Positions 2,773 through 15,889 of a stretch of DNA of 64,000 bases are shown in pieces. Positions within the stretch are counted from its first letter, which is position 1, and each line of letters starts with the position of its first letter. The notes beneath the pieces were generated by a model, which did no database searches, had not been told where the DNA came from, and saw only the letters and a program-made list of their open reading frames with translations. The stretch is taken from positions 1-64,000 of the IMG/VR virus record IMGVR_UViG_3300027976_000007. One strand, 5' to 3'. The position numbers and the translations under genes were made by a program. The DNA is from a virus.

Positions 2773-2995
2773 TTAAAAATCAAAACCACTCAACCCTCTG
2801 TCAAATTCATAATCATTTGGGTTATATTTGTTTTCGGGTAAACAATTTGCTATTTAATTGCATATATTCATCACCATACATTTTATAAGCGTGCCCTTTA
2901 CCATCAGCTATAGCTAATGTTCTTTTATTGTTTGTTATGATAAATACAGGTCTGTTTTCTCTATTATCTTTTGGGCATTTTCCTTTTTTCATCAT
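2773..2995 (-). pseudogene. Small gene with frameshift near its 3' end
   Basis: Frame one runs from 2995 to a stop at 2822 (57 residues, with VFIITNNKRTLAIADGKGHAYKMYGDEY). A second frame continues NCLPENKYNPNDYEFDRGLSGFDF to 2773. A one-base indel around 2835-2850 would join them. Start overlaps the stop of the upstream fragment. Confidence 0.5.
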
Positions 2996-3057
2996 TTCTT
3001 GATTTTGAATTCCTTACCTATCATTTGAGTTAACTCTTCCATTGTATTTAGATTCAT
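2992..3057 (-). pseudogene. C-terminal fragment of the 21-residue-repeat family
   Basis: Encodes MNLNTMEELTQMIGKEFKIKK, which equals the conserved C-terminus of the amplified family nearby with none of its repeats. It ends in the usual ATGATG junction with the next gene. It is a deletion product of a full copy, or a minimal surviving member. Confidence 0.7.
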
Positions 3058-3075
3058 TTATCGTATGGTTCAATG

Positions 3076-3273
3076 TCATCTTGTTGTTGCGATAATGAAA
3101 GTAAGAACACATGAGAAAATTAACCACAAAAAACCTGCCAAGAACCTACCCAATTCATCCCAATTACTTATGTCAAATAAGTTAACCGTGAATGACCCTA
3201 GTATGTATAACACTAAGGCTACAAGTAGCCCAGCTAAAACTATCCAAGCTAAAATTATCTTAATTGCTTTCAT
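3076..3273 (-). CDS. Small membrane protein, two TM segments
   Basis: A 65-residue protein with hydrophobic stretches at about residues 5-26 and 45-62 joined by a short loop. The start overlaps the upstream stop by 4 nt. Function unknown. Confidence 0.6.
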   Translation of the reverse strand: MKAIKIILAWIVLAGLLVALVLYILGSFTVNLFDISNWDELGRFLAGFLWLIFSCVLTFIIATTR

Positions 3274-3530
3274 GACTTCTTGATTTTAAATTCTTTACCT
3301 ACTATCTTGGTCAGTTCCTCCATTGTATACTCTGGAATTGATTTGGAACGTGTGTCTATAATCAATCCATCTGAATTTTCAAAATAGATTACATTATCGT
3401 TATTCAATTCGTCATATTCTCTTTTCATCCAAAACTTATTTGAATCTTCACGATAGATTACATTACCTCTAGAATCCCCTATCCTAAAAGGAAATTCTGT
3501 TATTTTCAGTTGCTCTGCTATTGTTTTCAT
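3270..3530 (-). CDS. 21-residue-repeat family protein (1-2 repeats)
   Basis: An 86-residue member of the family amplified in this region. N-terminal head TIAEQLKITEFPF, one full repeat (GN.IY.EDSNKFW.KREYD) and a closing partial repeat, then the conserved tail RSKSIPEYTMEELTKIVGKEF. The shortest complete member; it supports gain or loss of whole repeats. Function unknown. Confidence 0.75.
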   Translation of the reverse strand: MKTIAEQLKITEFPFRIGDSRGNVIYREDSNKFWMKREYDELNNDNVIYFENSDGLIIDTRSKSIPEYTMEELTKIVGKEFKIKKS

Positions 3531-3539
3531 CTTAATTAT

Positions 3540-4232
3540 TTATAAGTTAATTACTTCAAGTATATTCCCATTGTTACTTAGCTTACCAAACTTACCGTCC
3601 GTTACAACAGAACCATTTGAGAATATTGTGTCTAAGAATGGAACTGTTCGTGTTCCTGCATTAATGATGTCATCCATATTATGGATATGTCCGAATAACA
3701 TTAGTTTTGGATTAACCCCAACAACCCTATTCATTAGCGACTTATCTCCGCAATTTTCCATATTCCTACTTCTATCGTAGGATAGGTCTAACATCCCTCT
3801 AGGAGGGCCATGTACTATTACAATGTCACTATCATCATCTATTATGTTACACCACATCCTTTCCAACTTGTTCCTATCTTTGTTGAATGCCCACCCATCC
3901 CCGAAGGTTGGTGAGTAAGGCGACCCAAATATCTTAACGCCTTCAATAGTTACATGGTCATTCTCTAAGTAATAAATTCCATTATTATCAAAATCAGCCT
4001 TAGTTACAAGACCTGCCCCAATTGATGTGTCATGGTTACCCGCAACAAATACTTTGTACTTGATAGGTAGATGACTAAACCAATCCATAAAATTCCTAAC
4101 TTCATGTTCGTTGGTATATGGGTCTCTAAGATTAGCGCAGTCACCACTGAAGATTACCATGTCTATCCCCTCTGGAATTGTTAGTAAACTGTGGTATGTA
4201 TGCGTATCACTTATATGCCAAACTTTCATCAT
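3540..4232 (-). CDS. Calcineurin-like metallophosphoesterase
   Basis: A 230-residue single-domain phosphoesterase. All signature blocks are present in order: SDTH (D9, H11), GD (31), GNHD (65-68), H141 in HGPP, and GHIH (H182, H184), which bind two metal ions. This set is typical of small phosphodiesterases acting on nucleotides or RNA; the substrate cannot be told. It sits between members of the repeat family with 4-nt overlaps, so it is co-transcribed with them. Confidence 0.9.
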   Translation of the reverse strand: MMKVWHISDTHTYHSLLTIPEGIDMVIFSGDCANLRDPYTNEHEVRNFMDWFSHLPIKYKVFVAGNHDTSIGAGLVTKADFDNNGIYYLENDHVTIEGVKIFGSPYSPTFGDGWAFNKDRNKLERMWCNIIDDDSDIVIVHGPPRGMLDLSYDRSRNMENCGDKSLMNRVVGVNPKLMLFGHIHNMDDIINAGTRTVPFLDTIFSNGSVVTDGKFGKLSNNGNILEVINL

Positions 4233-4543
4233 TTCTTAATTTTAAATTCTTTACCTAACATTTTAGTCAGTTCTTCCATTGTATACTCTGGAATTGATTT
4301 GGGGCGATTGTCTACAATCAATCCTTCTGAATTTTCATAATAGATTTCCCACTTATTCAAGTCAAATTCGCTTTTACGCCGATACTTATCTGAATCTTCA
4401 TAATAGATTACATTATTATTCGAGTCATATTCTCTTTTTATCCAATACTTATATGAAGTTTCAAAATAGATTAGATTACCCTTAGAATCCTTTATCCTAA
4501 AAGGAAATTCTGTTACCTTAATTTGCTCTGCTATTGTCATCAT
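4229..4543 (-). CDS. 21-residue-repeat family protein (2-3 repeats)
   Basis: A 104-residue member with conserved head and tail (RPKSIPEYTMEELTKMLGKEF). It has one standard repeat, one in which the Trp is replaced (DKYRRKSEFD), and a closing partial repeat. Overlaps neighbours by 4 nt on both sides. Confidence 0.75.
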   Translation of the reverse strand: MMTIAEQIKVTEFPFRIKDSKGNLIYFETSYKYWIKREYDSNNNVIYYEDSDKYRRKSEFDLNKWEIYYENSEGLIVDNRPKSIPEYTMEELTKMLGKEFKIKK

Positions 4544-4917
4544 TTCTTAATTTTAAATTCCTTACCTAACATCTTGGTTAGTTCTTCCATTGTGTACTCT
4601 GGAACGGATTTGGGGCGGTTGTCTCTAATTTCCCCCTTTGAATCTTCATAATAGGTTACACGACCTCTTGAGTTAAATTCTCTTTTGACCCAAAAATTAT
4701 TTGAATCTTCAAAATAGATTTTATTATTATTCAAGTCATATTCTCTTTTGATCCAATACTTATTTGAACTTTCAAAATAGGTTATATTATTATTCAAGTC
4801 AAATTCTTGTTTGTACCAAGACTTATTTGAATCTTCAACATAGATTTTATTACCCTTACCGTCCTTTATGATAAAAGGAAACTCAGTTATTTTTAACTGT
4901 TCTGCGATTGTCATCAT
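4540..4917 (-). CDS. 21-residue-repeat family protein (3 repeats)
   Basis: A 125-residue member with three full repeats and a closing partial one. The head reads MTIAEQLKITEFPFIIKDGK, shared with the copies at 9541 and 10484, which points to block exchange between copies. Confidence 0.75.
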   Translation of the reverse strand: MMTIAEQLKITEFPFIIKDGKGNKIYVEDSNKSWYKQEFDLNNNITYFESSNKYWIKREYDLNNNKIYFEDSNNFWVKREFNSRGRVTYYEDSKGEIRDNRPKSVPEYTMEELTKMLGKEFKIKK

Positions 4918-5291
4918 TTCTTGATTTTAAATTCTTTACCTAACATCTTGGTCAGTTCTTCCATTGCATATTCTGGAATTGATTTGGGGCGGTCGTCTCT
5001 AATTGTTCCATTTGAATCTTCAAAATATATTTCATTGTCATTCGAGTCAAATTCTCTTTTGTACCAAAACTTATCTGAATCTTCAGAATAGGTTACATTA
5101 TTATTCGAGTCATATTCTGTTTTTTCCCAAAACTTATCGGAATTTTCATGATAGGTTTCATTACCTTTTGGGTCAAATTCTTGTTTGTACCAATATTTAT
5201 CTGAATCTTCAGAATAAATTTTATTACCCTTTGAATTCCGTATTTCAAAAGGAAATTCAGTTATTTTTAATTGTTGTGCAATTGTCATCAT
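4914..5291 (-). CDS. 21-residue-repeat family protein (3 repeats)
   Basis: A 125-residue member. Its first two repeats (for example KYWYKQEFDPKGNETYHENS) are also present unchanged in the copy at 8859-9173, 4 kb away, so segments have been duplicated or converted recently. Confidence 0.75.
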   Translation of the reverse strand: MMTIAQQLKITEFPFEIRNSKGNKIYSEDSDKYWYKQEFDPKGNETYHENSDKFWEKTEYDSNNNVTYSEDSDKFWYKREFDSNDNEIYFEDSNGTIRDDRPKSIPEYAMEELTKMLGKEFKIKK

Positions 5292-5662
5292 TTCTTAACT
5301 TTAAATTCCTTACCTACTATCTTGATCAGTTCTTCCATCGTGTACTCTGGAATTGATTTGGGGCGATTGTCTACAATCAATCCTTCTGAATTTTCAAAAT
5401 AGGCCATATTACCCCTTGAGTCATATTCGCTTTTCTGCCAAAAATTATTTGAATTTTCAGAATAGATTTCATTATTATTCGAGTCATATTCTCTTTTTAA
5501 CCAATACCCCTTTGAATCTTCATAATAGGTTACACTACCTCTTGAGTTAAATTCTCTTTTGACCCAAAACTTATTGACAAACTCAACATAGATTTTATTA
5601 CCTCTAGAATCCCATATTTCAAAAGGAAATTCAGTTACTTTTAGTTGCTCTGCGATTGTCAT
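5288..5662 (-). CDS. 21-residue-repeat family protein (3 repeats)
   Basis: A 124-residue member and the first gene of the 3.3-5.7 kb block in transcription order. Three full repeats plus a partial one; tail ends GKEFKVKK. No promoter of the common type was found directly upstream, so it may depend on read-through past 5719-5774. Confidence 0.75.
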   Translation of the reverse strand: MTIAEQLKVTEFPFEIWDSRGNKIYVEFVNKFWVKREFNSRGSVTYYEDSKGYWLKREYDSNNNEIYSENSNNFWQKSEYDSRGNMAYFENSEGLIVDNRPKSIPEYTMEELIKIVGKEFKVKK

Positions 5663-5717
5663 GATGATGTTGTTTAATATTAATATGGTTCATTTCAATT
5701 ACCCGAACCCCTTATAC

Positions 5718-5879
5718 CTAAATATAACATCCATCTTTGGGAAGGCCAAACAAAAACAACGGAAATCGTTGTTTCTTCAATTCAAAACCAACTAATTTGA
5801 GCCAATCTCTTGTTACTCCTCCATAGATATAAAGGATGAGAGCCGCGGAAGCTGGGTATATAGAGGAGTTAGAAGACAT
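5718..5879 (-). CDS. Small protein ending inside a promoter
   Basis: A 53-residue frame whose ATG directly follows the stop of the upstream gene. The N-terminal 30 residues (hydrophobic, with GGVTRDWLKLV) look protein-like; the end (LFGLPKDGCYI) is encoded by a hairpin and promoter, as in the gene at 2293. Function unknown. Confidence 0.4.
   Translation of the reverse strand: MSSNSSIYPASAALILYIYGGVTRDWLKLVGFELKKQRFPLFLFGLPKDGCYI
5719..5750 (-). promoter_or_regulatory. Promoter, class 1
   Basis: TTTGG, 19 nt, TATATTTA on the minus strand, with GGATGT before the -7 element. It precedes the block of repeat-family genes at 3.0-5.7 kb by about 60 nt. Confidence 0.8.
5754..5774 (-). terminator. 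Perfect 8-bp hairpin beside promoter
   Basis: AAACAACG pairs with CGTTGTTT around a GAAAT loop, directly upstream of the promoter at 5719-5750. Same arrangement as at 2329. Termination function is inferred. Confidence 0.45.
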
Positions 5880-6065
5880 TTAGCCGAACTTAACCGACCA
5901 TGTTTTTAAGGCACCTGCATTTGGGTCTTTTGACAATTTCCAAATAACGATTCTTGGGTATTTACTAAAATACTTTGATTTAGTTATCCAAATTTTAAAC
6001 CTGAAAATTGTAAAAACTAAATAGTCAATTTCCCTTCCTTCACTTCTTTTTCTGTTGGTAATCAT
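5880..6065 (-). CDS. Small basic protein
   Basis: A 61-residue protein, rich in Lys, Ile, Phe and Trp. Stop and next start abut (TAAATG). No family recognised. Confidence 0.45.
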   Translation of the reverse strand: MITNRKRSEGREIDYLVFTIFRFKIWITKSKYFSKYPRIVIWKLSKDPNAGALKTWSVKFG

Positions 6066-6099
6066 ATTCGTGTATTATTTCTGTAAATTAAAAATAGTA

Positions 6100-6306
6100 T
6101 TAACTTTCTAGTTCTTTAACCAACTTCTCCAAAGCGGTGAATTCTCCCCAAGTTAATTGAAATCTTGTGCTTAATTTACCAACTATATCAACATCAAACC
6201 CGTCACCGTTTTTCCATTCAGTAACTTCTATAAAGTCATCTTCATTAGCAATAAAGTCATATTTTTTTAAGTTACTAAACACCGCTTTTTTATTGTACTT
6301 ATCCAT
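6100..6306 (-). CDS. Small acidic protein
   Basis: A 68-residue protein with a mixed strand/helix pattern (FIEVTEWKNGDGFDVDI, ending in a helix LEKLVKELES). Function unknown; it belongs to the short operon started by the promoter at 6570. Confidence 0.55.
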   Translation of the reverse strand: MDKYNKKAVFSNLKKYDFIANEDDFIEVTEWKNGDGFDVDIVGKLSTRFQLTWGEFTALEKLVKELES

Positions 6307-6323
6307 ATACCTATCAGTTATTT

Positions 6324-6548
6324 TTAATCACGTTTTTCATCCTCTAAGGTTACACTTTTTACGAATTTTCCCGTTTTGGTTGTAAAGTAATAATCAATCA
6401 ATATTTGTCTTCCGCCCCTAACATTTATAACGCTAATCCCGAATTGATTTTTATTGGTAGGAGTAAATGCAAATACCATTATCTCTTTTGTAAAAACACT
6501 GTTAACTTGTGTGACTGCTTTTTTTAGTATTTTTTCTGAGGGTTTCAT
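6324..6548 (-). CDS. Hypothetical protein
   Basis: A 74-residue protein started at MKPSEKILKKAV. The longer reading from 6581 begins inside the promoter (MLYLGI is promoter sequence) and is rejected. First gene after the promoter; function unknown. Confidence 0.55.
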   Translation of the reverse strand: MKPSEKILKKAVTQVNSVFTKEIMVFAFTPTNKNQFGISVINVRGGRQILIDYYFTTKTGKFVKSVTLEDEKRD

Positions 6549-6569
6549 TTCATGTTTCTCATTAATACC

Positions 6570-6601
6570 TAAATATAACATCCGTCTTTGGGGAGGCCAA
6601 A
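6570..6601 (-). promoter_or_regulatory. Promoter, class 1
   Basis: TTTGG, 19 nt, TATATTTA with the standard CCTCCCCAAAGA spacer. Drives 6548 to 5718. Confidence 0.8.
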
Positions 6602-6762
6602 CAGATCACACCTTTCTTATTCTATTTGCGATTAGGTGTCACGAGACGTTGGATGTATCCCTTTGTTTCTGTCATATTTATAAAATATCGCATTACTTAT
6701 ACTATTGTCTGTATTCATACAACTCGTTACATTAAAACTATTAACAAGGGTATAGTTAATGC

Positions 6763-6942
6763 TTAACTCCGTACTTCATTATCACTTTCTACTTCTTTAC
6801 TTATAATATTTTTTTTAGCCCACTCTACTCCAGCTTCAAAACCTTTTTTCAATTCCTTGTAACTATTTGTTTCGTGCATATCAAAATAATTATGTGCATA
6901 ATATTCAGATGCTCTTTCAATTTTTTGTTTTGTGTTTTCCAT
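6763..6942 (-). CDS. Small phage protein with FEAGVEWA motif
   Basis: A 59-residue protein. The segment KKGFEAGVEWAKKNI is a pattern I know from many small phage proteins of unknown role (Phe-x-x-Gly-x-x-Trp-Ala helix). Start chosen at the only ATG. Confidence 0.6.
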   Translation of the reverse strand: MENTKQKIERASEYYAHNYFDMHETNSYKELKKGFEAGVEWAKKNIISKEVESDNEVRS

Positions 6943-7036
6943 TTTATAAAATATTTTAATTATTACTTATGTTGTTAATTTAAAATTTTGTGCTATTTAA
7001 ACGGCACAAACCATATACCTATACGTTGTAAGTAAT

Positions 7037-7058
7037 AAAAAAGCTAGTCTCTCCTAGC
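7037..7058 (-). terminator. Rho-independent terminator
   Basis: On the minus strand GCTAG-GAGAGA-CTAGC is followed by six T. This is the clearest intrinsic terminator in the window. Confidence 0.8.
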
Positions 7059-7200
7059 AGTCACACCTAAATTAACTGGTACAACATAGTATTGGCATCG
7101 CTCCTTTCGGTTTACGTATGTTTATCCAACCTAACACCGTTATACGTGCTTCCCTGTGTCCTACACGTTCATCTTTATATTTTAACTGCTTTTTAACTAC
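7059..7200 (-). other. Non-coding stretch before terminator, possible small RNA
   Basis: No sensible frame is seen on either strand, but the minus-strand transcript would contain a hairpin ACGTG...CACGT (about 7147-7171) and ends in the strong terminator at 7037-7058. A small RNA or the leftover of a deleted gene are both possible. Confidence 0.3.
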
Positions 7201-7327
7201 TCACAACTCGGCAAAGTTCAAATAATGGCTTTCACAACAGTCTTGGGTCGTGACTTGATAATAGTTGAGTTCCGTCATTAAAAACTAGTTCGTTATTCTC
7301 TATTTTTACTACTTTTAATTTTTTCAT
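7201..7327 (-). pseudogene. Frameshifted small phage gene
   Basis: Starts MKKLKVVKIENNELVFNDGT and then the sense moves to another frame, giving VTTQDCCESHYLNFAEL to a stop at 7201. The DCCESHY motif belongs to a small phage family of unknown function that I recognise by this block. The break and the short tail indicate decay or an indel error. Confidence 0.55.
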
Positions 7328-7341
7328 TTTATTAAAATTTA

Positions 7342-7545
7342 TTATTGTTCACTCCCTTTTATTGATTCCTCAACATATAATACTTGGGATCTTAGATCTT
7401 TCAACTTTTCTTCTCTCTCTATTAGGAGTTTGACATGGAGACCTTTAAGAATGAGGTTCTGTTCTTTCATAGTGTACCGAATTAAAGAAGAATACACCTC
7501 CATCAACCCTTGAACTTTTTCTATTTCACTCATATTTTTTCTCAT
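7342..7545 (-). CDS. Small helical protein
   Basis: A 67-residue, strongly helical protein with heptad-like Leu/Ile spacing, probably a coiled coil. Met-5 (7533) is an alternative start. It follows the promoter at 7553 by a few bases. Confidence 0.55.
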   Translation of the reverse strand: MRKNMSEIEKVQGLMEVYSSLIRYTMKEQNLILKGLHVKLLIEREEKLKDLRSQVLYVEESIKGSEQ

Positions 7546-7552
7546 TTATGTC

Positions 7553-7584
7553 TAAAAATAACATCGATTTTTAGGGAAGCCAAA
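7553..7584 (-). promoter_or_regulatory. Promoter, class 1 variant
   Basis: TTTGG, 19 nt, TATTTTTA. Slightly degenerate -7 element, but spacing and the GATGT flank fit the others. Confidence 0.7.
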
Positions 7585-7622
7585 CAAGACATACTATTCT
7601 TGAGGAAGTGTTTGATTTTCTA

Positions 7623-7754
7623 TCATGATTCTTTATAATCAAAGTTAAAGTTCAAGTTGGGTTTTTGTTTTGGTTTTTTGTTGGGGTTAATTTTCATAAA
7701 TCTCATCCATTCTTTAAGTTGGGTGAGATTCTGTTGAGGGCTGTTTTTGTTCAT
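7623..7754 (-). CDS. Small Asn/Lys/Pro-rich protein
   Basis: A 43-residue protein starting MNKNSPQQNLTQLKEWMRFM and ending in a low-complexity Asn-Lys-Pro tail. It follows the AT-hook gene after 3 nt. Function unknown. Confidence 0.45.
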   Translation of the reverse strand: MNKNSPQQNLTQLKEWMRFMKINPNKKPKQKPNLNFNFDYKES

Positions 7755-7757
7755 AAT

Positions 7758-8015
7758 TTAAAATTCTACATTAATTGGGTTTACTCTATCAGAGCATACT
7801 ATTCGTCTTTCTTTACCGTTGGAAATGGCACAAGTTGAATCCCCATCAAGGTAATAAACCAGATTCCATGTTCCTGGATGGTCTAAACACATTACAGTAT
7901 CTCCTTGTTTTAGATGGCTTTTTTTCTTAGGCCTACCTCTCTTCTTTTTTACCTTCGGTCCAACGGTTATTGGATTTTTCCTTGGTCTTCCTCGTTTACG
8001 TTTTACAGATTCCAT
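7758..8015 (-). CDS. AT-hook DNA-binding protein
   Basis: An 85-residue protein with two AT-hooks, KRGRPRK and KKRGRPKK (residues about 6-12 and 21-28), which bind the minor groove of AT-rich DNA. The C-terminal half has an SH3-like pattern (GDTVMCLDHPGTWNLVYYLD). Start set at MESVKRKRGRPRK; the longer frame reads out of the promoter. It could coat or regulate this AT-rich genome. Confidence 0.75.
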   Translation of the reverse strand: MESVKRKRGRPRKNPITVGPKVKKKRGRPKKKSHLKQGDTVMCLDHPGTWNLVYYLDGDSTCAISNGKERRIVCSDRVNPINVEF

Positions 8016-8032
8016 CCGTTCTTTCTTATACC

Positions 8033-8064
8033 TAAATATAACATCCTTTCCTTGGGGGGCCAAA
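8033..8064 (-). promoter_or_regulatory. Promoter, class 1
   Basis: TTTGG, 19 nt, TATATTTA, 18 nt upstream of the AT-hook start codon. The spacer has six G on the plus strand in place of the usual GGGGAGG. Confidence 0.8.
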
Positions 8065-8254
8065 CCTAGGTTATAATGGGAATAATACTAAATACTTTAG
8101 GATTAATTGAAAATAGTGAAGAACCTGGTCAAACCCTATTAAGGAGAATGCTCCTAAATTAGGTATAGGCCCCCAATATAACACCAACAAATATCAGACT
8201 ATTGACCCAATTGCCTTCTAACAATAATATTTGTTTTTGTTTTAAATTAAATTT

Positions 8255-8713
8255 TTATCTACAAAGGTGATCTGCAGCTCGGCATGCAACTAAAGTTTCT
8301 GGTTTTACATTACATTTATAACCATAACCTCTAGCCCATCCCAAAGACGAAGATACCAGTTTATTTGAAAAGTAAGCATCATCATCATTTAAATCAAAAT
8401 CTACCCAATCAACTTTCAAATTGTTATTTGAGATATGCATTGCTACCTCCATAGTTAATTCAGTTTCCTTCCATAAACGTGTATACTTATCCTTAATCTT
8501 CTTTTCTTTGATCTTGTGATAAATTACATGAACTCCTCTATTCCCATATCTATAACATACACAAACAACAAAGAAGGTATGTCTTCTATGGTTTTGAGAA
8601 TCGGTTCCGACATGGACCGTTACATAGGGATTTTGGGAGATCATCTTCTTAGTATAGGAAATCACATCAATAGGGACATTGGGGGCTCTCTCGTTTTTAA
8701 AAACCTTTTTCAT
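8255..8713 (-). CDS. RNase H-like protein (DUF458/YkuK type)
   Basis: A 152-residue protein. VTVHVGTDSQNH is the metal-binding first strand of the RNase H fold (Asp); later RLWKETE, WVDFDLN and a C-terminal AADHLC supply further acidic residues. The pattern fits the YkuK-like family, common in phages, whose substrate is not established. Start overlaps the small gene upstream. Confidence 0.75.
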   Translation of the reverse strand: MKKVFKNERAPNVPIDVISYTKKMISQNPYVTVHVGTDSQNHRRHTFFVVCVCYRYGNRGVHVIYHKIKEKKIKDKYTRLWKETELTMEVAMHISNNNLKVDWVDFDLNDDDAYFSNKLVSSSLGWARGYGYKCNVKPETLVACRAADHLCR

Positions 8714-8795
8714 TATGTTCTTTTATGATTTTAAAACTTCCATCTACTATTTTACATTGTGGGGGGGAGTGACTTACATATAATTTATTTTTCAT
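8697..8795 (-). CDS. Very small protein upstream of RNase H-like gene
   Basis: A 32-residue frame, MKNKLYVSHSPPQCKIVDG onward, overlapping the next gene start by 17 nt. It may be translated or serve as a leader; evidence is only the intact frame. Confidence 0.35.
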   Translation of the reverse strand: MKNKLYVSHSPPQCKIVDGSFKIIKEHNEKGF

Positions 8796-8811
8796 AGTTA
8801 CCTGAATCTTT

Positions 8812-8862
8812 TTAGGTATAGGGAAACTCTGTTATTTTCCGTTGCCCCGTTATTGTCATCAT
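8812..8862 (-). pseudogene. N-terminal fragment of the 21-residue-repeat family
   Basis: Encodes MMTITGQRKITEFPYT and then stops. It equals the family head (TIAEQLKITEFPF) with all repeats and the tail missing. It abuts the next full copy through the usual TGATG junction. Confidence 0.65.
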
Positions 8863-9173
8863 TCCTTGATTTTAAATTGTTTACCTAACATTTGAGCCAG
8901 TTCCCCCATTGTATATTCTGGAACGGATTTGGGACGGTTGTCTCTAATTTCTCCATTTGAATTTTCATAATAAGTTACATTATTATTCGAGTCATATTCT
9001 GTTTTTTCCCAAAACTTATCGGAATTTTCATGATAGGTTTCATTACCTTTTGGGTCAAATTCTTGTTTGTACCAATATTTATCTGAATCTTCAGAATAAA
9101 TTTTATTACCCTTTGAATTCCGTATTTCAAAAGGAAATTCAGTTATTTTTAACTGTTGTGCAATTGTCATCAT
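8859..9173 (-). CDS. 21-residue-repeat family protein (2 repeats)
   Basis: A 104-residue member. Its first two repeats match those of the copy at 4914-5291; the tail has diverged (MGELAQMLGKQFKIKE). Confidence 0.75.
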   Translation of the reverse strand: MMTIAQQLKITEFPFEIRNSKGNKIYSEDSDKYWYKQEFDPKGNETYHENSDKFWEKTEYDSNNNVTYYENSNGEIRDNRPKSVPEYTMGELAQMLGKQFKIKE

Positions 9174-9544
9174 TTCTTGATTTTAAATTCTTTACCTAAC
9201 ATCTTGGTCAGTTCTTCCATGGTGTATTCAGGAATTGATTTGGGACGGTTGTCTTCAATTATTCCATATGAATTTTCAAAATAGGTCATATTACCTCTTG
9301 AGTCAAATTCTCTTTTGACCCAATACTTATTTGAATCTTCATAATGGATTTCACAATTATTCAAGTCAAATTTTTGTTTGTACCAAAATTTCTTTGAATC
9401 TTCAGAATAGGTTAAATTATCCCTTGAATCAAATTCGTTTTTGATCCAATACTTATTTGAATTTTCAAAATAGATTTCATTACTTCTTGAATCCTTTATC
9501 CTAAAAGGGAATTCTGTTACTTTTAACTGTTCTGAAATTGTCAT
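9170..9544 (-). CDS. 21-residue-repeat family protein (3 repeats)
   Basis: A 124-residue member with three full repeats and a closing half repeat; head TISEQLKVTEFPF. Stop/start overlap of 4 nt with both neighbours. Confidence 0.75.
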   Translation of the reverse strand: MTISEQLKVTEFPFRIKDSRSNEIYFENSNKYWIKNEFDSRDNLTYSEDSKKFWYKQKFDLNNCEIHYEDSNKYWVKREFDSRGNMTYFENSYGIIEDNRPKSIPEYTMEELTKMLGKEFKIKK

Positions 9545-9987
9545 TGTTTCTTAATTTTAAATTCTTTACCTACTATCTTGGTCAACTCTTCCATTGTGTA
9601 CTCTGGAATGGATTTGGGGCGGTTGTCTCTAATTTCCCCCTTTGAATCTTCATAATAGGTTACACTACCTCTTGAGTTAAATTCTCTTTTCTCCCAATAT
9701 TTATTTGAAGTTTCAAAGTAGATTTCTTCATTGTTCTTCAAGTCAAATTCTCTTTTGACCCAAAAATTATTTGAATTTTCATAATAGATTTGATTATTAT
9801 TCGAGTCATATTCTTGTTTGTACCAAGACTTATTTGAATCTTCAAAATAGATTTTATTACCTTTCAAGTCAAATTCTTGTTTGTACCAAAATTTCTTTGA
9901 ATTTTCCCAATAGATTTTATTACCCTTACCGTCCTTTATGATAAAAGGAAACTCTGTTATATTTAACTGTTCTGCGATTGTCATCAT
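9541..9987 (-). CDS. 21-residue-repeat family protein (4 repeats)
   Basis: A 148-residue member with four Trp-centred repeats; one repeat carries an extra residue (LKNNEEIYFE). Shows that repeat number changes while head and tail are fixed. Confidence 0.75.
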   Translation of the reverse strand: MMTIAEQLNITEFPFIIKDGKGNKIYWENSKKFWYKQEFDLKGNKIYFEDSNKSWYKQEYDSNNNQIYYENSNNFWVKREFDLKNNEEIYFETSNKYWEKREFNSRGSVTYYEDSKGEIRDNRPKSIPEYTMEELTKIVGKEFKIKKQ

Positions 9988-10487
9988 TTCTTGATTTTAA
10001 ATTCTTTACCTAACATTTGGGTTAGTTCTTCCATTGTGTACTCTGGGGTTGATTTAGGGCGATTGTCTATAATCAATTTATCTGAATTTTCAAAATATAT
10101 TTCCTTACTATTCAAGTCAAATTCTTTTTTATACCAACAACCATTTGAAGTTTCATAATATATCACATTACTATTCAAGTCAAATTCTTTTTTATACCAA
10201 CATTCATCTGAATCTTCATAAAATGTTACCCTATTATTCAAGTCAAATTCTTGTTTGTACCAAAATTTCTCGGAATTTTCATAATAGGTTAAATTATTAT
10301 TCGAGTCATATTCTCTTTTGGACCAAAAATTATTTGGATCTTCATAATAGGTTACACTACCTCTTGAGTTAAATTCTCTTTTCTCCCAATATTTATTTGA
10401 ATTTTCATAATATGTTTGGTTGCCTCTTGAATCCTTTATCCTAAAAGGGAATTCGGTCATCTTCAGTTGCTCTGCTATTGTCATCAT
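9984..10487 (-). CDS. 21-residue-repeat family protein (5 repeats)
   Basis: A 167-residue protein, the longest simple member, with five Trp-centred repeats. Repeats 4 and 5 (ECWYKKEFDLNSNVIYYE) are near-duplicates, the footprint of a recent in-frame repeat gain. Confidence 0.75.
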   Translation of the reverse strand: MMTIAEQLKMTEFPFRIKDSRGNQTYYENSNKYWEKREFNSRGSVTYYEDPNNFWSKREYDSNNNLTYYENSEKFWYKQEFDLNNRVTFYEDSDECWYKKEFDLNSNVIYYETSNGCWYKKEFDLNSKEIYFENSDKLIIDNRPKSTPEYTMEELTQMLGKEFKIKK

Positions 10488-10861
10488 TTCTTAACTTTAA
10501 ATTCTTTACCTAACATTTGGGTTAACTCCTCCATCGTGTATTCAGGAATTGATTTGGGGCGGTCGTCTCTAATTGTTCCATTTGAATCTTCAAAATATAT
10601 TTCATTGTCATTCGAGTCAAATTCTCTTTTGTACCAAAACTTATTTGAATCTTCATAATAGGTTTCATTGTCATTCGAGTCATATTCTGTTTTTTCCCAA
10701 AACTTATCGGAATTTTCATGATAGGTTTCATTACCTTTTGGGTCAAATTCTTGTTTGTACCAAAATTTCTTTGAATTTTCCCAATAGATTTTATTACCCT
10801 TACCGTCCTTTATGATAAAAGGAAACTCTGTTATATTTAACTGTTCTGCGATTGTCATCAT
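10484..10861 (-). CDS. 21-residue-repeat family protein (3 repeats)
   Basis: A 125-residue member that looks mosaic: its head matches the copy at 9541, its middle the copy at 4914/8859, and its end (SNGTIRDDRPKSIPEY) the copy at 4914. Confidence 0.75.
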   Translation of the reverse strand: MMTIAEQLNITEFPFIIKDGKGNKIYWENSKKFWYKQEFDPKGNETYHENSDKFWEKTEYDSNDNETYYEDSNKFWYKREFDSNDNEIYFEDSNGTIRDDRPKSIPEYTMEELTQMLGKEFKVKK

Positions 10862-10923
10862 TTCTTGATTTTAAATTCTTTACCTAACATTTGGGTTAAC
10901 TCTTCTATTGTATATTCTAACAT
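10858..10923 (-). pseudogene. C-terminal fragment of the 21-residue-repeat family
   Basis: Encodes MLEYTIEELTQMLGKEFKIKK, the family tail only, like the fragment at 2992. Both C-terminal fragments are the first element of their block in transcription order or adjoin it, as if left by unequal recombination. Confidence 0.7.
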
Positions 10924-10943
10924 ATGAGTTGATTGTAGTTCAA

Positions 10944-11162
10944 TTATCTTTCTAAAATTACAAAATCACCGAAGTATTCATCGAAAACCTTTATGAGTTC
11001 TTCATAGTCACCTTTCATCATCTCTCTCACAACATCATTCCCATCTATCCTCATCTGTCTTGCATATTCTTTAGCAATCCCCATCAAAACGAAAGCATTC
11101 CCTTCGGGTCCTGTCAAGTCAATAATTCTCTTACCTTTTGCTTTATTTTTTTTCCTTATCAT
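10944..11162 (-). CDS. Conserved phage protein
   Basis: A 72-residue protein started at MIRKKNKAKGKRIIDL. The block IDLTGPEGNAFVLMGIA followed by FDEYFGDFVILE is one I recognise from many large phages; function unknown. The longer frame overlaps the upstream gene and was not used. Confidence 0.7.
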   Translation of the reverse strand: MIRKKNKAKGKRIIDLTGPEGNAFVLMGIAKEYARQMRIDGNDVVREMMKGDYEELIKVFDEYFGDFVILER

Positions 11163-11166
11163 TTCC

Positions 11167-11379
11167 TTAATTTTTGAAATTCCTAATGTATGACTTAACC
11201 TCATAGATTATCTCAGGAGAAATTTCTACTTTAGGGCTTTCTGTTTTCTTAGGGAGGATTGTGTACTCTGGGGTTGATTTAGGGCGATTGTCTATAATCA
11301 ATTTAAGGGAATTTAATATCTTAATATTCCTATCCATCATCCTGAAAAGATCCTCTAAATTATAGTCTTTATTTCTCAT
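11167..11379 (-). CDS. Chimeric small protein carrying a piece of the repeat-family tail
   Basis: A 70-residue protein. Residues about 26-40 (LKLIIDNRPKSTPEYT) copy the junction between repeats and tail of the amplified family, most like the copy at 9984, while both ends are unrelated. It documents recombination of family segments into another gene. First gene after the promoter at 11396. Confidence 0.6.
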   Translation of the reverse strand: MRNKDYNLEDLFRMMDRNIKILNSLKLIIDNRPKSTPEYTILPKKTESPKVEISPEIIYEVKSYIRNFKN

Positions 11380-11395
11380 GTCTGTTAATTATATC

Positions 11396-11427
11396 TAAAT
11401 ATAACATCAAATTTTGGGGGAGCCAAA
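11396..11427 (-). promoter_or_regulatory. Promoter, class 1
   Basis: TTTGG, 19 nt, TATATTTA. Heads the 8.8-11.4 kb repeat-family block. About 130 nt of sequence upstream (11428-11561) holds no gene. Confidence 0.8.
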
Positions 11428-11561
11428 TCCGTTTTTAAATATATGGTAAATATGTGGCCTTTTAACGTAAGATTATAAGGTTATAACCACTACTTATAGA
11501 TTTTTAATACCCTATACGTTGATGGTGGGGTAATGGTTTAAATCGAAGGTAGGTGGGAAAA

Positions 11562-11897
11562 TTATTTCAATTTGTTTAAATATTGTTGGGTAGTTTTAAT
11601 TTCACCTTCATATTCTGTAAAATATATTATGAAATCGGCTTCTAATTGAATATCACAGAGATAAGCTTTGGTTTTCCTACTATAAACGTTTTCTCTATCC
11701 CAATACCAAAATCCTGGGTAGAATCTTGCTTTAATTGAATTGTTAGTAGATTTAACTATTATGTTTGCTTTATATTTCTCATTAGTGAAAAAGATTTTAA
11801 TATCAGCTTCATGGGTAGAAGGGGTGAAGGATATTATTTGGGTTTTAAGAGAAACAGAAATGAAAACAAATAGAAATAGAAATAAACTTTTCATCAT
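11562..11897 (-). CDS. Secreted protein, DUF6150-like
   Basis: A 111-residue protein with an N-terminal signal sequence (hydrophobic residues 4-17). The repeated Ala-Asp/Ala-Asn-strand pattern (EADIKIFFTNEKYKANIIV) resembles the DUF6150 type of short repeat protein in Bacteroidota. Likely exported; overlaps the upstream stop by 4 nt. Confidence 0.55.
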   Translation of the reverse strand: MMKSLFLFLFVFISVSLKTQIISFTPSTHEADIKIFFTNEKYKANIIVKSTNNSIKARFYPGFWYWDRENVYSRKTKAYLCDIQLEADFIIYFTEYEGEIKTTQQYLNKLK

Positions 11898-12295
11898 ACT
11901 ATTGGAGGATAGATAAATTTAAGTAGAGGGAATATTATTTTCTCCCACACCCATCCTAGAGAAATTATAATGGTTAGGATAACCGCTATTATTTCGAATT
12001 TGGATAGCTTCATACTCCATCTTTCCTTTTCATCTTCTTTTTTCCCTTTCTCTATAACTTGAATCTCAGACTTAACCTTAATTGTTGTAGCTTGTTCATC
12101 CATAAAATGTTTTACCATATCCCTAAAAGCATTAGATTCCTCAATTAACTTATCTAATTTTTCTTTGCTAGCTTTATGTTTGATGTCTTCTTTTAAGCTC
12201 ATAAGGTCTTTATCAACAAACCTAAGGTGAGTCAATACTTTAATGACCAAATCTCTAGTACCGTTGGTACTTTGGTCGTTGAAATCTTCATTCAT
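11894..12295 (-). CDS. Coiled-coil protein with C-terminal membrane anchor
   Basis: A 133-residue protein: a long charged helix (about 25-95) and one TM segment at about 103-124 (IIAVILTIIISLGWVWEKII). Topology suggests a tail-anchored protein. Overlaps both neighbours by 4 nt. Confidence 0.6.
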   Translation of the reverse strand: MNEDFNDQSTNGTRDLVIKVLTHLRFVDKDLMSLKEDIKHKASKEKLDKLIEESNAFRDMVKHFMDEQATTIKVKSEIQVIEKGKKEDEKERWSMKLSKFEIIAVILTIIISLGWVWEKIIFPLLKFIYPPIV

Positions 12296-13191
12296 ATCAG
12301 ATTTTTATATTTTGCTTTAAATTCTTTGTATTTCTCTTCTGTTGAAGGTGTATTATTACATATCCAATACTCCCCACCTATACTAGTACTTGATCTCTCC
12401 CAATCTACATAGAAATAATCTCCAGTGTGTTTTTTATCTTCGTTAAATATTTTATATTTTGTTATAACATTGTCTTTGGAAGAATCAGATTCCCAAAATT
12501 TGAGTATAAAGGTTTTTTCTCTGTCGGCAATCATATCCATGAAAGGAGTAGAATCAAAGGTTGCCGCGTCGAGTTTGGTCATTTCCAACCATAAAGGGGA
12601 ATAGTATTTAAAAAATCCATCAAATGTTAGGATACAATTTAGCCTATACGGTGAGAAGAAGAGATCCGTTAATAGTTGCTCTTTTAAAGCAAAATCATAA
12701 GCCATTATCTCCAGATTATCATATATGATATCAATTCTTTGTTCGGGGGTTATGTCCTCTCTTTCTTTATATTCTGCTGACCATCCATCCTGACCTAAAG
12801 CGGGACACCATACTAAAACAATCCCTTCGTTATCCAAGAATAAGGCTTTATGGATAACTCCTTTAGGTATTTTTAAACAATCACCTGCTTTCAATAAAAT
12901 CTTTTTGGTTGTAATTACTTGAAAACGTCCATCCTCTAATTCTTGCACTTCACCTAGAAAATACACGACATTTCCTACGGCGGTCACGCTTTCAGAGAAA
13001 TCATGATAATGCCAGTCAAAAAGTTCTCCATCCACACCTTTGTAGATAGCTAGAGTTGCTATCTTACCTCCAATATCAAAAATTCCCTTTAATTTTGAAC
13101 CTTTTGAATTAAAGATTTGCCATTTATCGGTTATTTTGAAGTTTTTAACATTTTGAATGGGTTCTTTTAAAATCTTCTTTTCAATTTCCAT
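12292..13191 (-). CDS. Cupin-PAS fusion protein
   Basis: A 299-residue protein. The first half is a cupin barrel: FDWHYHDFSE gives the HxH...E motif and LKAGDCLKIPKGVIHK the second motif with its metal-binding His. The second half resembles a PAS fold (NCILTFDGFFKYYSPLWLEM, then FMDMIADREKTF). Cupins bind small ligands through a metal; PAS domains sense. The pairing suggests a sensor or a virulence factor altering host signalling, but no output domain is present. Confidence 0.55.
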   Translation of the reverse strand: MEIEKKILKEPIQNVKNFKITDKWQIFNSKGSKLKGIFDIGGKIATLAIYKGVDGELFDWHYHDFSESVTAVGNVVYFLGEVQELEDGRFQVITTKKILLKAGDCLKIPKGVIHKALFLDNEGIVLVWCPALGQDGWSAEYKEREDITPEQRIDIIYDNLEIMAYDFALKEQLLTDLFFSPYRLNCILTFDGFFKYYSPLWLEMTKLDAATFDSTPFMDMIADREKTFILKFWESDSSKDNVITKYKIFNEDKKHTGDYFYVDWERSSTSIGGEYWICNNTPSTEEKYKEFKAKYKNLI

Positions 13192-13248
13192 TTATACATT
13201 TTGTTATAAATATATAGAAAAGTGTCAATATTGTACTTAATTTTAATG

Positions 13249-13321
13249 AGCCTCCCCCCAGAATCGAACTGGATTCTCCAACTTACCGAGTTGGACATCA
13301 TCCAATAAATGTTTAGGAGAC
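13249..13321 (-). tRNA. tRNA-Thr (anticodon GGT), unusual
   Basis: Acceptor GTCTCCT/GGGAGGC, T arm with TTCGATT, D arm ACAT/ATGT. The anticodon stem CCAAC/GTTGG encloses TCGGTAA, giving GGT but with C instead of T at position 33. No CCA is encoded. Confidence 0.6.
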
Positions 13322-13329
13322 TTAATTGG

Positions 13330-13415
13330 AGGAAGACAAAGGTATCGAACCTTACTCCTTATGGGGAGCGTGTTGTTTAGCAAACAAACCCCATCACCAT
13401 TTGGGATTATCTTCC
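13330..13415 (-). tRNA. tRNA-Ser (GCT)
   Basis: Acceptor GGAAGAT/GTCTTCC, loop TTGCTAA, a long variable arm (CTCC/GGAG) as expected for Ser, and T loop TTCGATA. Confidence 0.85.
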
Positions 13416-13426
13416 TTTTTTATTAG

Positions 13427-13508
13427 TCGGCAGAGAGGGATTTGAACCCACATTTTCAACATACCAATTACAGTTCTCCATCTTATCAGGATGGGCTGGT
13501 ACCTGCCG
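13427..13508 (-). tRNA. Atypical tRNA-Ile-like (GAT)
   Basis: Good acceptor (CGGCAGG/TCTGCCG), T arm (TTCAAAT) and anticodon arm CCATC-CTGATAA-GATGG. The D arm is missing: only 7 nt separate acceptor and anticodon stem. About 26 nt lie between anticodon and T arms and hold a D-loop-like TAATTGGTA. Same plan as 13995 and 14167. Confidence 0.5.
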
Positions 13509-13517
13509 TTTATTTTA

Positions 13518-13585
13518 GCCCGTATACTGAAATCGAATCAGTCTAGCCACCGTTATGAGCAGCAACCCTTCCCAGAAGATACGGG
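13518..13585 (-). tRNA. tRNA-Met-type (CAT)
   Basis: Acceptor CCCGTAT/ATACGGG and T arm ACTGA/TCAGT are perfect; loop CTCATAA is the universal Met/Ile2 loop. The anticodon stem has several G-T pairs and the D loop is short. Could be elongator Met, initiator, or Ile2. Confidence 0.75.
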
Positions 13586-13905
13586 TGGTCCAACTTTAGA
13601 ATTTTAGGGTTTCTCGGTATGTGACTCCTTAACCTTTGTACCTCTTCCATTATTACTAAAATGAAAGCCATATTATTAAATGTGATGAATTTTTCTTTAT
13701 TCCAATACTTCTCATGTATACTAAAAGCTCTGGGTGGATGCATTCAAAATGTTATAACATTTCTTTATCTATTAACCAACAATTTTTTACATTTAATTTA
13801 TATAATATTAAACTGTTATTAGTTTTCTCTTTCTAACATCGGCTGTTTAGCTTGGGTTAAGACTTAAGTCTTTTATAGCCCCAACGATTAACAATTTAAA
13901 ATCAG
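13586..13905. other. Gene-free stretch inside the tRNA array
   Basis: No tRNA is recognised. A 66-codon minus frame (13543-13743) overlaps the Met tRNA and has no recognisable content. Near 13852-13885 there is a nested hairpin: TTGGG...CCCAA enclosing the 14-bp palindrome AAGACTTAAGTCTT. Confidence 0.5.
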
Positions 13906-13992
13906 TAGCGGGAGAGGGAATTGAACCCAGCGCACCTTTTGGTTCTTAGCTTATGAGACTAAGGAGGCATACCAACAGCCTTCATTCCCGCT
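13906..13992 (-). tRNA. tRNA with CAT anticodon and long variable arm
   Basis: Acceptor AGCGGGA/TCCCGCT, D arm AGGC/GCCT with GG, loop CTCATAA. The variable region is 14 nt with a hairpin ACC-AAAA-GGT, a feature of Ser/Leu/Tyr tRNAs and unexpected for Met or Ile2. T stem is weak. Confidence 0.6.
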
Positions 13993-13994
13993 AG

Positions 13995-14075
13995 TAGTCT
14001 AGATGGGATTCGAACCCACGTTTTCAATGTACCGCTACGGATATCCAAGATATAAGCTTGGTTCGATACTAGACT
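13995..14075 (-). tRNA. Atypical tRNA-Ile-like (TAT)
   Basis: Acceptor AGTCTAG/CTAGACT, anticodon arm CCAAG-CTTATAT-CTTGG and T arm are sound. No D arm (7-nt linker). A 25-nt region between anticodon and T arms carries CCGTAGCGGTA and ends TTGAAAAC, shared with 13427 and 14167. Confidence 0.5.
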
Positions 14076-14085
14076 ATTTATGTTG

Positions 14086-14158
14086 TGGAGCCACCGACAC
14101 ACGATATCGGATCCGATGATTGCAAATCATCAATTTTAACCACTTAAACTATGGCCCC
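14086..14158 (-). tRNA. tRNA-Ala (TGC)
   Basis: Acceptor GGGGCCA/TGGCTCC, anticodon arm GATGA-TTTGCAA-TCATC. The T loop is ATCGTGT instead of the usual TTCGANT. Confidence 0.8.
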
Positions 14159-14166
14159 TTTTGTTG

Positions 14167-14246
14167 AGGGGATGGTGGGATTCGAACCCACATTTTCAAC
14201 TCCAATTACGATTAGTAGTTTCGAAGACTACCTCGATTACATTCCC
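14167..14246 (-). tRNA. Atypical tRNA-Arg-like (TCG)
   Basis: Acceptor (one A-C mismatch), T arm GTGGG/CCCAC perfect, anticodon arm GTAGT-CTTCGAA-ACTAC. The D arm is absent (8-nt linker) and TAATTGGA sits in a 23-nt region between anticodon and T arms. Confidence 0.5.
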
Positions 14247-14255
14247 TTTTTTGTT

Positions 14256-14564
14256 TTATTTAAAAGTTTTAGAATATTCTTTAATTGTATCTAAAACTGT
14301 TTCATCTTTAGCAACTAATTGTGCTAGCCTTTTTATTACCTCTTTCATTTGCCCAAAATTGGCTTGACTGTTACCTATATCCTCCTCACATAAACTTTGA
14401 GCTAGAGGATTTATTTTTTCATTGTAATTAAACTTATCCATTCCTTTGCTATTTTTATTAACAATTGTTCTGTTTTTATATTGGAGGTATTCATATTTTA
14501 TTAAATTAAATAGTATATATAATACTACAACTACAATACTGCACAAAGCTAATACTTTCTCCAT
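14256..14564 (-). CDS. Membrane-anchored protein inside the tRNA array
   Basis: A 102-residue protein with one N-terminal TM segment (residues about 4-23) and a soluble helical C-terminus. The only protein gene between tRNA genes. Function unknown. Confidence 0.6.
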   Translation of the reverse strand: MEKVLALCSIVVVVLYILFNLIKYEYLQYKNRTIVNKNSKGMDKFNYNEKINPLAQSLCEEDIGNSQANFGQMKEVIKRLAQLVAKDETVLDTIKEYSKTFK

Positions 14565-14578
14565 ATATTTAAATTTTG

Positions 14579-14651
14579 TACCCCTAACAGGACTCGAACC
14601 TATACTAAAACTTTAGAAAAGTCTTGTGCTAATCCGTTACACTATAAGGGC
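14579..14651 (-). tRNA. tRNA-Arg (TCT)
   Basis: Canonical fold: acceptor GCCCTTA/TAGGGGT, D arm GTGT/GCAC, loop TTTCTAA, T loop TTCGAGT. Confidence 0.85.
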
Positions 14652-14663
14652 ATTTTAGTTTTG

Positions 14664-14737
14664 CTGTCCCCCCAGGGATCGAACCTGGAAACTCTACATT
14701 CAAAATGTAGCGGCTTTTCCTGTTTGCCTAGAGGACA
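14664..14737 (-). tRNA. tRNA-Gln (TTG)
   Basis: Acceptor TGTCCTC/GGGGACA, anticodon arm CTACA-TTTTGAA-TGTAG, T arm CCAGG/CCTGG. Canonical. Confidence 0.9.
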
Positions 14738-14749
14738 TTATATTAATTT

Positions 14750-14825
14750 GAGCGAGTAGACGGGATTGAACCTACTCTATTCCTGGTTGGAAGCCAAGTG
14801 CACCACCTCTTATGCGTTACTCGCT
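14750..14825 (-). tRNA. tRNA-Gly (TCC)
   Basis: Acceptor AGCGAGT/ACTCGCT perfect, loop CTTCCAA. T stem has mismatches. Its 5' end supplies the stop codon of an HNH gene remnant. Confidence 0.8.
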
Positions 14826-14889
14826 TGTATTTTCATTGTAATGATGTTTCCTATGACAATTAGAACATAAAACAATGCATTTATTTTTG
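14817..14889 (-). pseudogene. HNH endonuclease C-terminal remnant
   Basis: The spacer between tRNA-Leu and tRNA-Gly encodes KCIVLCSNCHRKHHYNENTSE and a stop. Cys-x-x-Cys-His-Arg-x-x-His is the typical C-terminal zinc/HNH motif of phage homing endonucleases. The rest of the gene is gone. Confidence 0.6.
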
Positions 14890-14975
14890 TACTCGGAGAG
14901 GGACTCGAACCCTCACGATCGTTACTGATCACTGGAGCTTAAACCCAGCGTGACTACCAATTCCACCATCCAAGC
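14890..14975 (-). tRNA. tRNA-Leu (TAA)
   Basis: Type II tRNA: acceptor GCTTGGA/TCCGAGT, Leu-like D arm with GAATTGGTAG, anticodon arm CTGGG-TTTAAGC-TCCAG, long variable arm, T arm GAGGG/CCCTC. Confidence 0.9.
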
Positions 14976-14988
14976 ATCTTTATTTAAT

Positions 14989-15020
14989 TAAATATAACAT
15001 CCATATTTTGGATAGCCAAA
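14989..15020 (-). promoter_or_regulatory. Promoter, class 1
   Basis: TTTGG, 19 nt, TATATTTA between tRNA-Thr and tRNA-Leu. It starts a second tRNA transcription unit from tRNA-Leu(TAA) leftward. Confidence 0.8.
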
Positions 15021-15034
15021 TTATGGTGAAAATA

Positions 15035-15108
15035 GAGCACTTAACCGGCTTCGAACCGATGACCTCTCATTACAAGTGAGGAATTTTACCTACTAAACTA
15101 TAAGTGCT
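15035..15108 (-). tRNA. tRNA-Thr (TGT)
   Basis: Acceptor AGCACTT/AAGTGCT, loop CTTGTAA, T arm ATCGG/CCGGT. Outer pair of the anticodon stem is C-A. Confidence 0.85.
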
Positions 15109-15115
15109 TATAAAA

Positions 15116-15165
15116 TGGCCTTGCACCATTTCGGAAGTCTTTCGCGTTAACTTCTAAAGCCATGA
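15116..15165 (-). other. Structured spacer between tRNA genes
   Basis: The minus strand can form an 8-bp closing stem ATGGCTTT/AAGGCCAT around an inner GAAGT/ACTTC hairpin. It has no T arm or anticodon and may be a processing signal or a tRNA remnant. Confidence 0.35.
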
Positions 15166-15250
15166 TGAGGGTGGAGGAACCGAGCCCCTACCGATATTAC
15201 ACGATACCCTAGTTTTCAAGACTAGTTGTTCTCCCTTGAACGGCACCCTC
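15166..15250 (-). tRNA. tRNA-Ser (TGA)
   Basis: Acceptor GAGGGTG/CACCCTC, D arm GTTC/GAAC, loop CTTGAAA, long variable arm. T loop CTCGGTT is unusual. Confidence 0.8.
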
Positions 15251-15260
15251 AATTTAATAG

Positions 15261-15331
15261 TCTAAATGGTCAGAATCGAACTGACTACACCATGAACCCC
15301 ATTCATGATCGATACCTTATTCGTCATCTAG
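15261..15331 (-). tRNA. tRNA-Pro (GGG)
   Basis: Acceptor CTAGATG/CATTTAG, T arm GTCAG/CTGAC, anticodon arm CATGA-ATGGGGT-TCATG. Confidence 0.8.
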
Positions 15332-15341
15332 TTTTATATTG

Positions 15342-15420
15342 TGGTCTTAAGAGGATTCGAACCCCTACCTGCGATTACTACTTTTGAAATAGTGGACTTT
15401 ACCAATTTGTCCATAAGACC
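15342..15420 (-). tRNA. tRNA-Leu (CAA)
   Basis: Acceptor GGTCTTA/TAAGACC, loop TTCAAAA, moderate variable arm. The D arm is the same as in the next tRNA-Leu, so the two arose by duplication. Confidence 0.85.
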
Positions 15421-15425
15421 CGTTG

Positions 15426-15504
15426 TACCCATAACAGGACTCGAACCCGCACCAACGATTATTGCTTCTAAGGCAATGGACTTTACCAATTTGTCCATAT
15501 GGGC
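15426..15504 (-). tRNA. tRNA-Leu (TAG)
   Basis: Acceptor GCCCATA/TATGGGT, anticodon arm ATTGC-CTTAGAA-GCAAT. Shares the D arm GGAC...GTCC of tRNA-Leu(CAA). Confidence 0.85.
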
Positions 15505-15509
15505 ATTAA

Positions 15510-15584: not shown

Positions 15585-15598
15585 ATGTAAAAATTTAA

Positions 15599-15879: not shown

Positions 15880-15889
15880 TTATTAATTG

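Follow-up and report, generated by a model that had tools for sequence, protein, structure and literature searches.

We analyzed a 64-kb stretch of DNA (hereafter the window), taken from the 142,110-b virus record IMGVR_UViG_3300027976_000007 of IMG/VR, and within it an array of genes encoding a family of small repeat proteins. The record belongs to a tailed phage and holds 19 transfer RNAs (tRNAs) along with early genes, GroEL, and queuosine-type genes. Reading of the translations places likely sheath, baseplate, and terminase-like genes beyond the window, at ~66-130 kb of the record, far from the array, which sits among early small open reading frames (ORFs) beside the tRNAs. Several of its proteins look like those of Bacteroidota, a candidate host group. 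Clear matches to the family are confined to positions 2995-19176 of the whole record. We found ten intact copies, all on the minus strand between 3270 and 10861, in agreement with an earlier reading made from the sequence alone (hereafter the sequence-only reading). As that reading had also described, each copy consists of a fixed head, one to five 21-residue units, and a fixed tail. The copies are 86-167 amino acids long and together hold 29 tryptophan-containing units.

The copies are arranged in two blocks (10861-8859 and 5662-4229) and a solitary copy (3530-3270). In the order of transcription, the first block comprises copy 1 (10484-10861, three units), copy 2 (9984-10487, five units), copy 3 (9541-9987, four units), copy 4 (9170-9544, three units), and copy 5 (8859-9173, two units). 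The second comprises copies 6 (5288-5662), 7 (4914-5291), and 8 (4540-4917), with three units each, and copy 9 (4229-4543), with two; copy 10 (3270-3530) has a single unit. Successive copies are joined by ATGA(TG) stop/start overlaps, the ATGATG chaining noted earlier, and the tail of copy 9 leads through an ATGA overlap into a metallophosphoesterase gene lying inside the array (3540-4232, minus strand). Unrelated ORFs fill the interval between the blocks (5662-8859), and a Pfam search of the interspersed ORFs returned nothing informative. The motif GATGTTATATTTA stands on the minus strand ahead of copies 6-9 (5719-5731) and ahead of a chimeric ORF and copies 1-5 (11396-11408). It has 13 sites, against 0.65 expected, some of them in the tRNA region. 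Further minus-strand sites include 2294, 6570, 8033, 14989, 17027, 17244, 21271, 37640, and 54851, several in accessory and tRNA regions, and a TTTGGCC-CCCAA-like stretch precedes the motif at the sites read. This motif is a probable phage promoter and, because it stands ahead of both blocks, each block is probably one operon.

Pieces of further copies lie on the same strand. The sequence-only reading had counted at least four partial copies, tail-only or head-only; we found three, none of them head-only. Two are tail-only fragments: one with its own ATG runs into copy 1 (10861-10947), and the other, with an ATGATG junction, runs into the unrelated ORF 2822-2995 (2995-3045). The third is the chimeric ORF (11167-11379) with the fragment LIIDNRPKSTPEYT, whose chimeric nature had been recognized and which has 48 bp identical to copy 2 (the copy at 9984). 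A divergent relative at 18430-19356, beyond the stretch described by the sequence-only reading and also on the minus strand, has a head (MEDNIKENWKKFLNEEMTKAQELGITEFPY) and an end that differ from those of the array copies. It holds two modules derived from a 360-bp tandem duplication (~95% identical) and has 62 exact bp in common with copy 8.

The mean pairwise DNA identity of the copies is 82%, and long exact blocks are set within this background, as had been noted between distant copies. A block of 179 bp is the same at 5092-5270 and 8974-9152, i.e., in copies 7 and 5. Another of 157 bp is found at 9868-10024 and 10742-10898, one of 100 bp at 4975-5074 and 10545-10644, and one of 91 bp at three places (5103-5193, 8985-9075, and 10673-10763). 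Exact blocks of 91-179 bp amid such identity are a clear sign of sequence exchange between separate copies, rather than of chance. The active recombination proposed before is supported by these blocks, by the fragments, and by a pair of sister contigs (L192 and L196). These two are identical over ~7.1 kb, after which the head and first unit of a family gene differ, the later units agree, and the downstream sequence differs again. In a second pair (L242 and L243), the 5' half of one copy differs beside the end of the contig. The differences in both pairs may be contig-edge errors. More generally, a typical short read would not span the longest identical blocks, and the contigs are metagenomic, probably from short reads, so that misassembly is possible; such misassembly of repeats with long identity is reported for het genes (PMC12222747).

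A close sister of the array itself was not found, even when scanning with GroEL and the phosphoesterase. The only near-identical contig (L026) matches at 100% identity over 21.6 kb and begins at ~19.5 kb of the window, beyond the array, inside the tandem repeat of the gene at 19256-20302. Sister scans for two of the arrays found in other phages (L157 and L209) yielded the same contigs again, or else a distant relative lacking family genes, and nothing more. The contig L322, for example, has no family genes and carries a counterpart, at 46% identity, of a gene that flanks the array in L209.

To assess the selection acting on the family, we compared its parts. In the window, the ratio of non-synonymous to synonymous rates (dN/dS) is 0.066 for heads, 0.099 for tails, and 1.09 for units. 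Within units, the odd positions Y1, E3, W9, K11, E13, and D15 are near-invariant, and positions 2, 10, 12, and 20 change. Given the alternation of residues along the strands and the N17-G18 turn, we infer that one face holds positions 0, 2, 10, 12, and 14, and the opposite face the invariant residues. We then analyzed 238 disjoint close unit pairs from 63 non-redundant phage loci. At positions 2, 10, and 12, the proportion of non-synonymous differences (pN) was 0.284 and that of synonymous ones (pS) 0.133, giving a pN/pS of 2.13 (Fisher p = 4e-13). Counted by locus, pN exceeded pS in 51 and pS exceeded pN in 9 (p = 3e-8). The invariant opposite face had a pN/pS of 0.15 and the loop positions ~0.9. 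When neutral evolution was simulated with two base compositions and a kappa of 1 or 3, the ratio averaged 1.04-1.42 and reached at most 1.89. For the secreted bacterial relatives, this test gave 0.77-0.87; since these lack the excess, it is a property of the phage proteins and not of the fold.

These values bear on two simpler accounts of the array. The copies could have been amplified for dosage, i.e., to raise the amount of a single inhibitor, in the way that T4 amplifies tifA against ToxIN, their sequence differences being secondary. The tandem, promoter-led, and translationally coupled arrangement would fit, and anti-defence genes of T4 and T6 are known to undergo segmental amplification (PMC9391042, PMC13096335). 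Yet the copies are far from identical and differ in unit number, and dosage does not need a non-synonymous excess at three positions over 63 loci, which makes this account unlikely. The expansion could otherwise be neutral or selfish, with phage recombination expanding short direct repeats and a sheet that tolerates change on an unused face. An unrelated nearby gene (19256-20302) also has expanded tandem repeats, and the fragments, the chimeras, and the pN/pS of the loops are all consistent with this. We nevertheless hold it improbable, as all ten frames are intact and their heads and tails constrained, independent expansion is repeated in many phages, and the pN/pS at positions 2, 10, and 12 exceeds all neutral simulations.

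To characterize the scaffold, we modeled copy 2 with AlphaFold2, a check that the sequence-only reading had proposed. The model (predicted local distance difference test, pLDDT, 94.4) is an antiparallel beta sheet with a short helix at both ends, in which each 21-residue unit forms a two-stranded hairpin (unit positions 20-3 and 9-14). The best Foldseek matches in the PDB were Tse15 (2e-8) and RhsA (4e-8), with teneurins and Tc proteins also found, so that the predicted hairpin repeat has the fold of solved RHS shells; OspA followed these YD/RHS shells (E-values of 3e-6 to 1e-4). A second subfamily has heads starting with MKNILG, units of the form GYWxERTYDDNGNELTYKNS, and the tail PEYTMEELTKIVGKEFKIKK, the same as in window copies. 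Its model has the same predicted layout (pLDDT 88), and its sequence profile matches Rhs/teneurin chains at 4e-4. All 7 of its members touch TIGR01643, with E-values of up to 1, one relative scoring 14.9 bits for a cut-off of 15.8. The gene at 18430 scores 16.7 bits against the RHS profile of Pfam (cut-off 22), and no window copy passes the cut-off of that profile. The copies end in a short helical tail, with neither a toxin domain nor a closed shell holding a C-terminal toxin cleaved at the core motif. No Pfam or PHROG family names or covers the window copies, and no functional annotation was found for any family member. Hence, the family is YD-like by its predicted fold and not a member by curated cut-offs (PF05593, TIGR01643).

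We then searched for the family elsewhere. A single-protein query found no match among viral contigs; alignment queries did. Repeat-based scans gave 303 candidate relatives in viral contigs, of which 80 were retained, and 14 bacterial loci. The repeat model was matched by 308 ORFs in 170 loci of a redundant set, mostly phage contigs; the family is thus much wider than the window alone shows, recurring in many phages that are unrelated. The largest arrays have 14 copies (L157), 11 (L218), 7 (L164 and L233), and 6 (L209), and two loci (L170 and L171) have many modules within one frame of 1000 amino acids. Among cultured phages, a clear full-length member was found only in P8625, as a single copy. 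The head and tail alignment had no match in 84,980 bacterial and archaeal genomes. The 14 bacterial loci, matched there by the repeat alignment, are mostly of Clostridia with secreted-looking proteins. The Clostridia loci L140-L143 encode large proteins of this secreted-looking kind in which the 21-residue unit recurs many times, placed in some after a domain like the copper amine oxidase N-terminal repeat, others having an Fn3-like end.

Identity over head and tail averages 0.76 within a phage and 0.33 between phages, and the nearest neighbour lies in the same phage in 63 of 85 cases. Since heads and tails are alike within one phage and different between phages, amplification has occurred repeatedly, with some transfer between phages. 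Another contig (L264) carries a metallophosphoesterase 75% identical to that of the window, directly after two copies of the second subfamily. The tail-ATGA junction before the enzyme is the same in both phages, so the tail and junction have been kept, and head and units differ. In a further locus (L014, 43-798), a family copy and a receiver-like domain (LLWLDDIRNPY...) share one frame, joined at PKSIPEYTM, suggesting that the family tail can serve as a fusion hinge. The idea that other phage proteins use the tails as general-purpose modules was not supported among the collected loci.

By sequence reading, the neighbours that recur beside family genes are ERF-type annealing proteins, DnaB-like helicases, nucleases, or small unknown ORFs. 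Some relatives thus lie near recombination or replication genes, and in two phages the family is directly ahead of a metallophosphoesterase, as expected if the proteins bound nucleic acids or phage-made components (assembly or DNA-metabolism partners) and the variable face tuned the choice of sequence or partner. This is rather doubtful: no neighbour is conserved across the family, the largest neighbour cluster covering 11 of 106 loci, and conserved phage components would not obviously favour continued diversification. A place on the virion surface or in receptor binding, with repeats varying against host receptors, might be imagined because both the YD/RHS and the OspA fold are found at the surface of cells, and because L140-L143, among the bacterial relatives, appear to be secreted. 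We consider it very unlikely. None of 208 phage ORFs has a hydrophobic N-terminal stretch, a weak argument as virion proteins need none, and the array lies among early small ORFs beside the tRNAs, away from the likely structural genes.

The lack of hydrophobic N-termini and the early replication, recombination, or small unknown neighbours make an intracellular early role likely, and a surface receptor less likely as the target. We favour, with a probability of about 0.5, that these early phage proteins act inside the infected cell as binders of variable proteins, with a handle that stays constant and a face that recombines and diversifies. In this case, each copy would be an intracellular protein whose single YD/RHS-like beta sheet is flanked by two short helical parts, the head and the tail. 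Head and tail would form the constant handle, for oligomerization or a shared partner; on one face, positions 2, 10, and 12 would make up a contiguous stripe in contact with the partner. Recombination between nearly identical units and junctions would reshuffle specificities. The partners would most likely be host defence or toxin proteins, or alternatively proteins of rival phages, and the array would act as a library of inhibitors or decoys. The diversification put forward by the sequence-only reading is backed by recurrent arrays in many phages and by a non-synonymous excess on one predicted face that is absent from secreted bacterial relatives.

Several points weigh against this favoured account. 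The window-only counts at positions 2, 10, and 12 are small (15.5/116 vs 2.5/37). The dN/dS between repeats of one protein is a looser test than between orthologues, and a pairwise ratio of this kind is not a site model. Some of the 63 loci are related, codon bias was modeled by base composition only, and the assignment of the faces relies on how residues alternate along the strands and on the N-G turn rather than on inspection of coordinates. Fixed copy and repeat numbers among relatives had been named as evidence against diversification, an objection that applies in part: copy numbers are the same in near-identical contigs (L186/L189/L191, L209/L210, and L183/L184), whereas among more distant relatives they vary or the genes are missing.

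Retroelements are a known means by which phages vary their tail fibres, and single anti-defence genes are known to be amplified for dosage. Retroelement diversification was rejected for the 142-kb record, where an RVT_1 search gave no match (control genomes matched), although the record may be incomplete. We tentatively propose, as a possibility short of even odds, that the family represents a previously undescribed strategy: a recombination-driven repertoire of small YD-sheet binders, free of reverse transcriptase, with constant handles and a diversifying face, amplified independently in many phages and acting inside the cell against variable proteins of the host or of rival phages. It might, by analogy, be the phage counterpart of hypervariable repeat receptors. 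No paper describing the family was found in the literature searched. If true, phages would build repertoires in the infected cell by combining the tandem multiplication of genes with the shuffling of units and with diversifying selection on a single face of a repeat scaffold. Any copy could serve as bait for partners, possibly unknown host defence proteins, and the basic function can be tested now in P8625, which is cultured and has one member.

Other features of the window are worth reporting. The record starts with tandem 31-bp repeats (1-131, 4.3 copies, 99% identical) and 32-bp repeats (375-458) that include a AACAACTG...CTAGTTG-like inverted sequence. The gene at 19256-20302 has near-identical 84/102-bp tandem repeats (19453-19859) with a 186-bp super-unit (99%), which encode four copies of ISWGGFNLKKYLEDHSEDDEKTPKKKTD-like units. 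Four adjacent genes at 58139-60012 have a common N-terminus, M(D/N)NFDLKKYL(V/A)EG(K/R)LLKE, that resembles the FNLKKYLE unit at 19.5 kb and is possibly a sorting or capsid-targeting sequence. A B-family-like DNA polymerase gene is split in two ORFs (38605-41424 and 37673-38602), the larger apparently with an intein-like insert.

The family can be compared with several known systems. With the YD/RHS proteins (Rhs effectors, Tc toxins, and teneurins) it shares a repeat of ~21 residues with a YD-G motif, the predicted beta-hairpin sheet, the top Foldseek matches, and marginal profile matches; it differs in having 1-5 units in the window copies, below the Pfam cut-off, without closed shell, toxin domain, or signal peptide. 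Its predicted sheet resembles the single-layer sheet of OspA, open and with both faces exposed; OspA is a spirochaete lipoprotein, and no homology to it was detected in the window members. The member of the Verrucomicrobia phage P8625 (gp42, YP_009221585.1) is 50% identical and has several units, but it is a single copy with another head start and another tail (EVDGKKYKLTEL). The segmental amplification of tifA/dmd in T4 (PMC9391042) and that driven by SegB (PMC13096335) also concern small accessory phage genes amplified in tandem under defence pressure, but these are recent identical copies acting by dosage, with neither a repeat scaffold nor a diversified face. The HNWD NOD-like receptors het-d and het-e of Podospora have near-identical repeats under concerted evolution, in which a few hypervariable codons on the interaction surface are under diversifying selection and the repeats are otherwise homogenized (PMC12222747). 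Their repeats form WD40 propellers in an immune receptor of a fungus and have no homology to the phage family. The family nevertheless resembles them in behaviour, with a constant handle, recombining units, and a constrained scaffold in which a few hypervariable positions show a non-synonymous excess on one inferred face.

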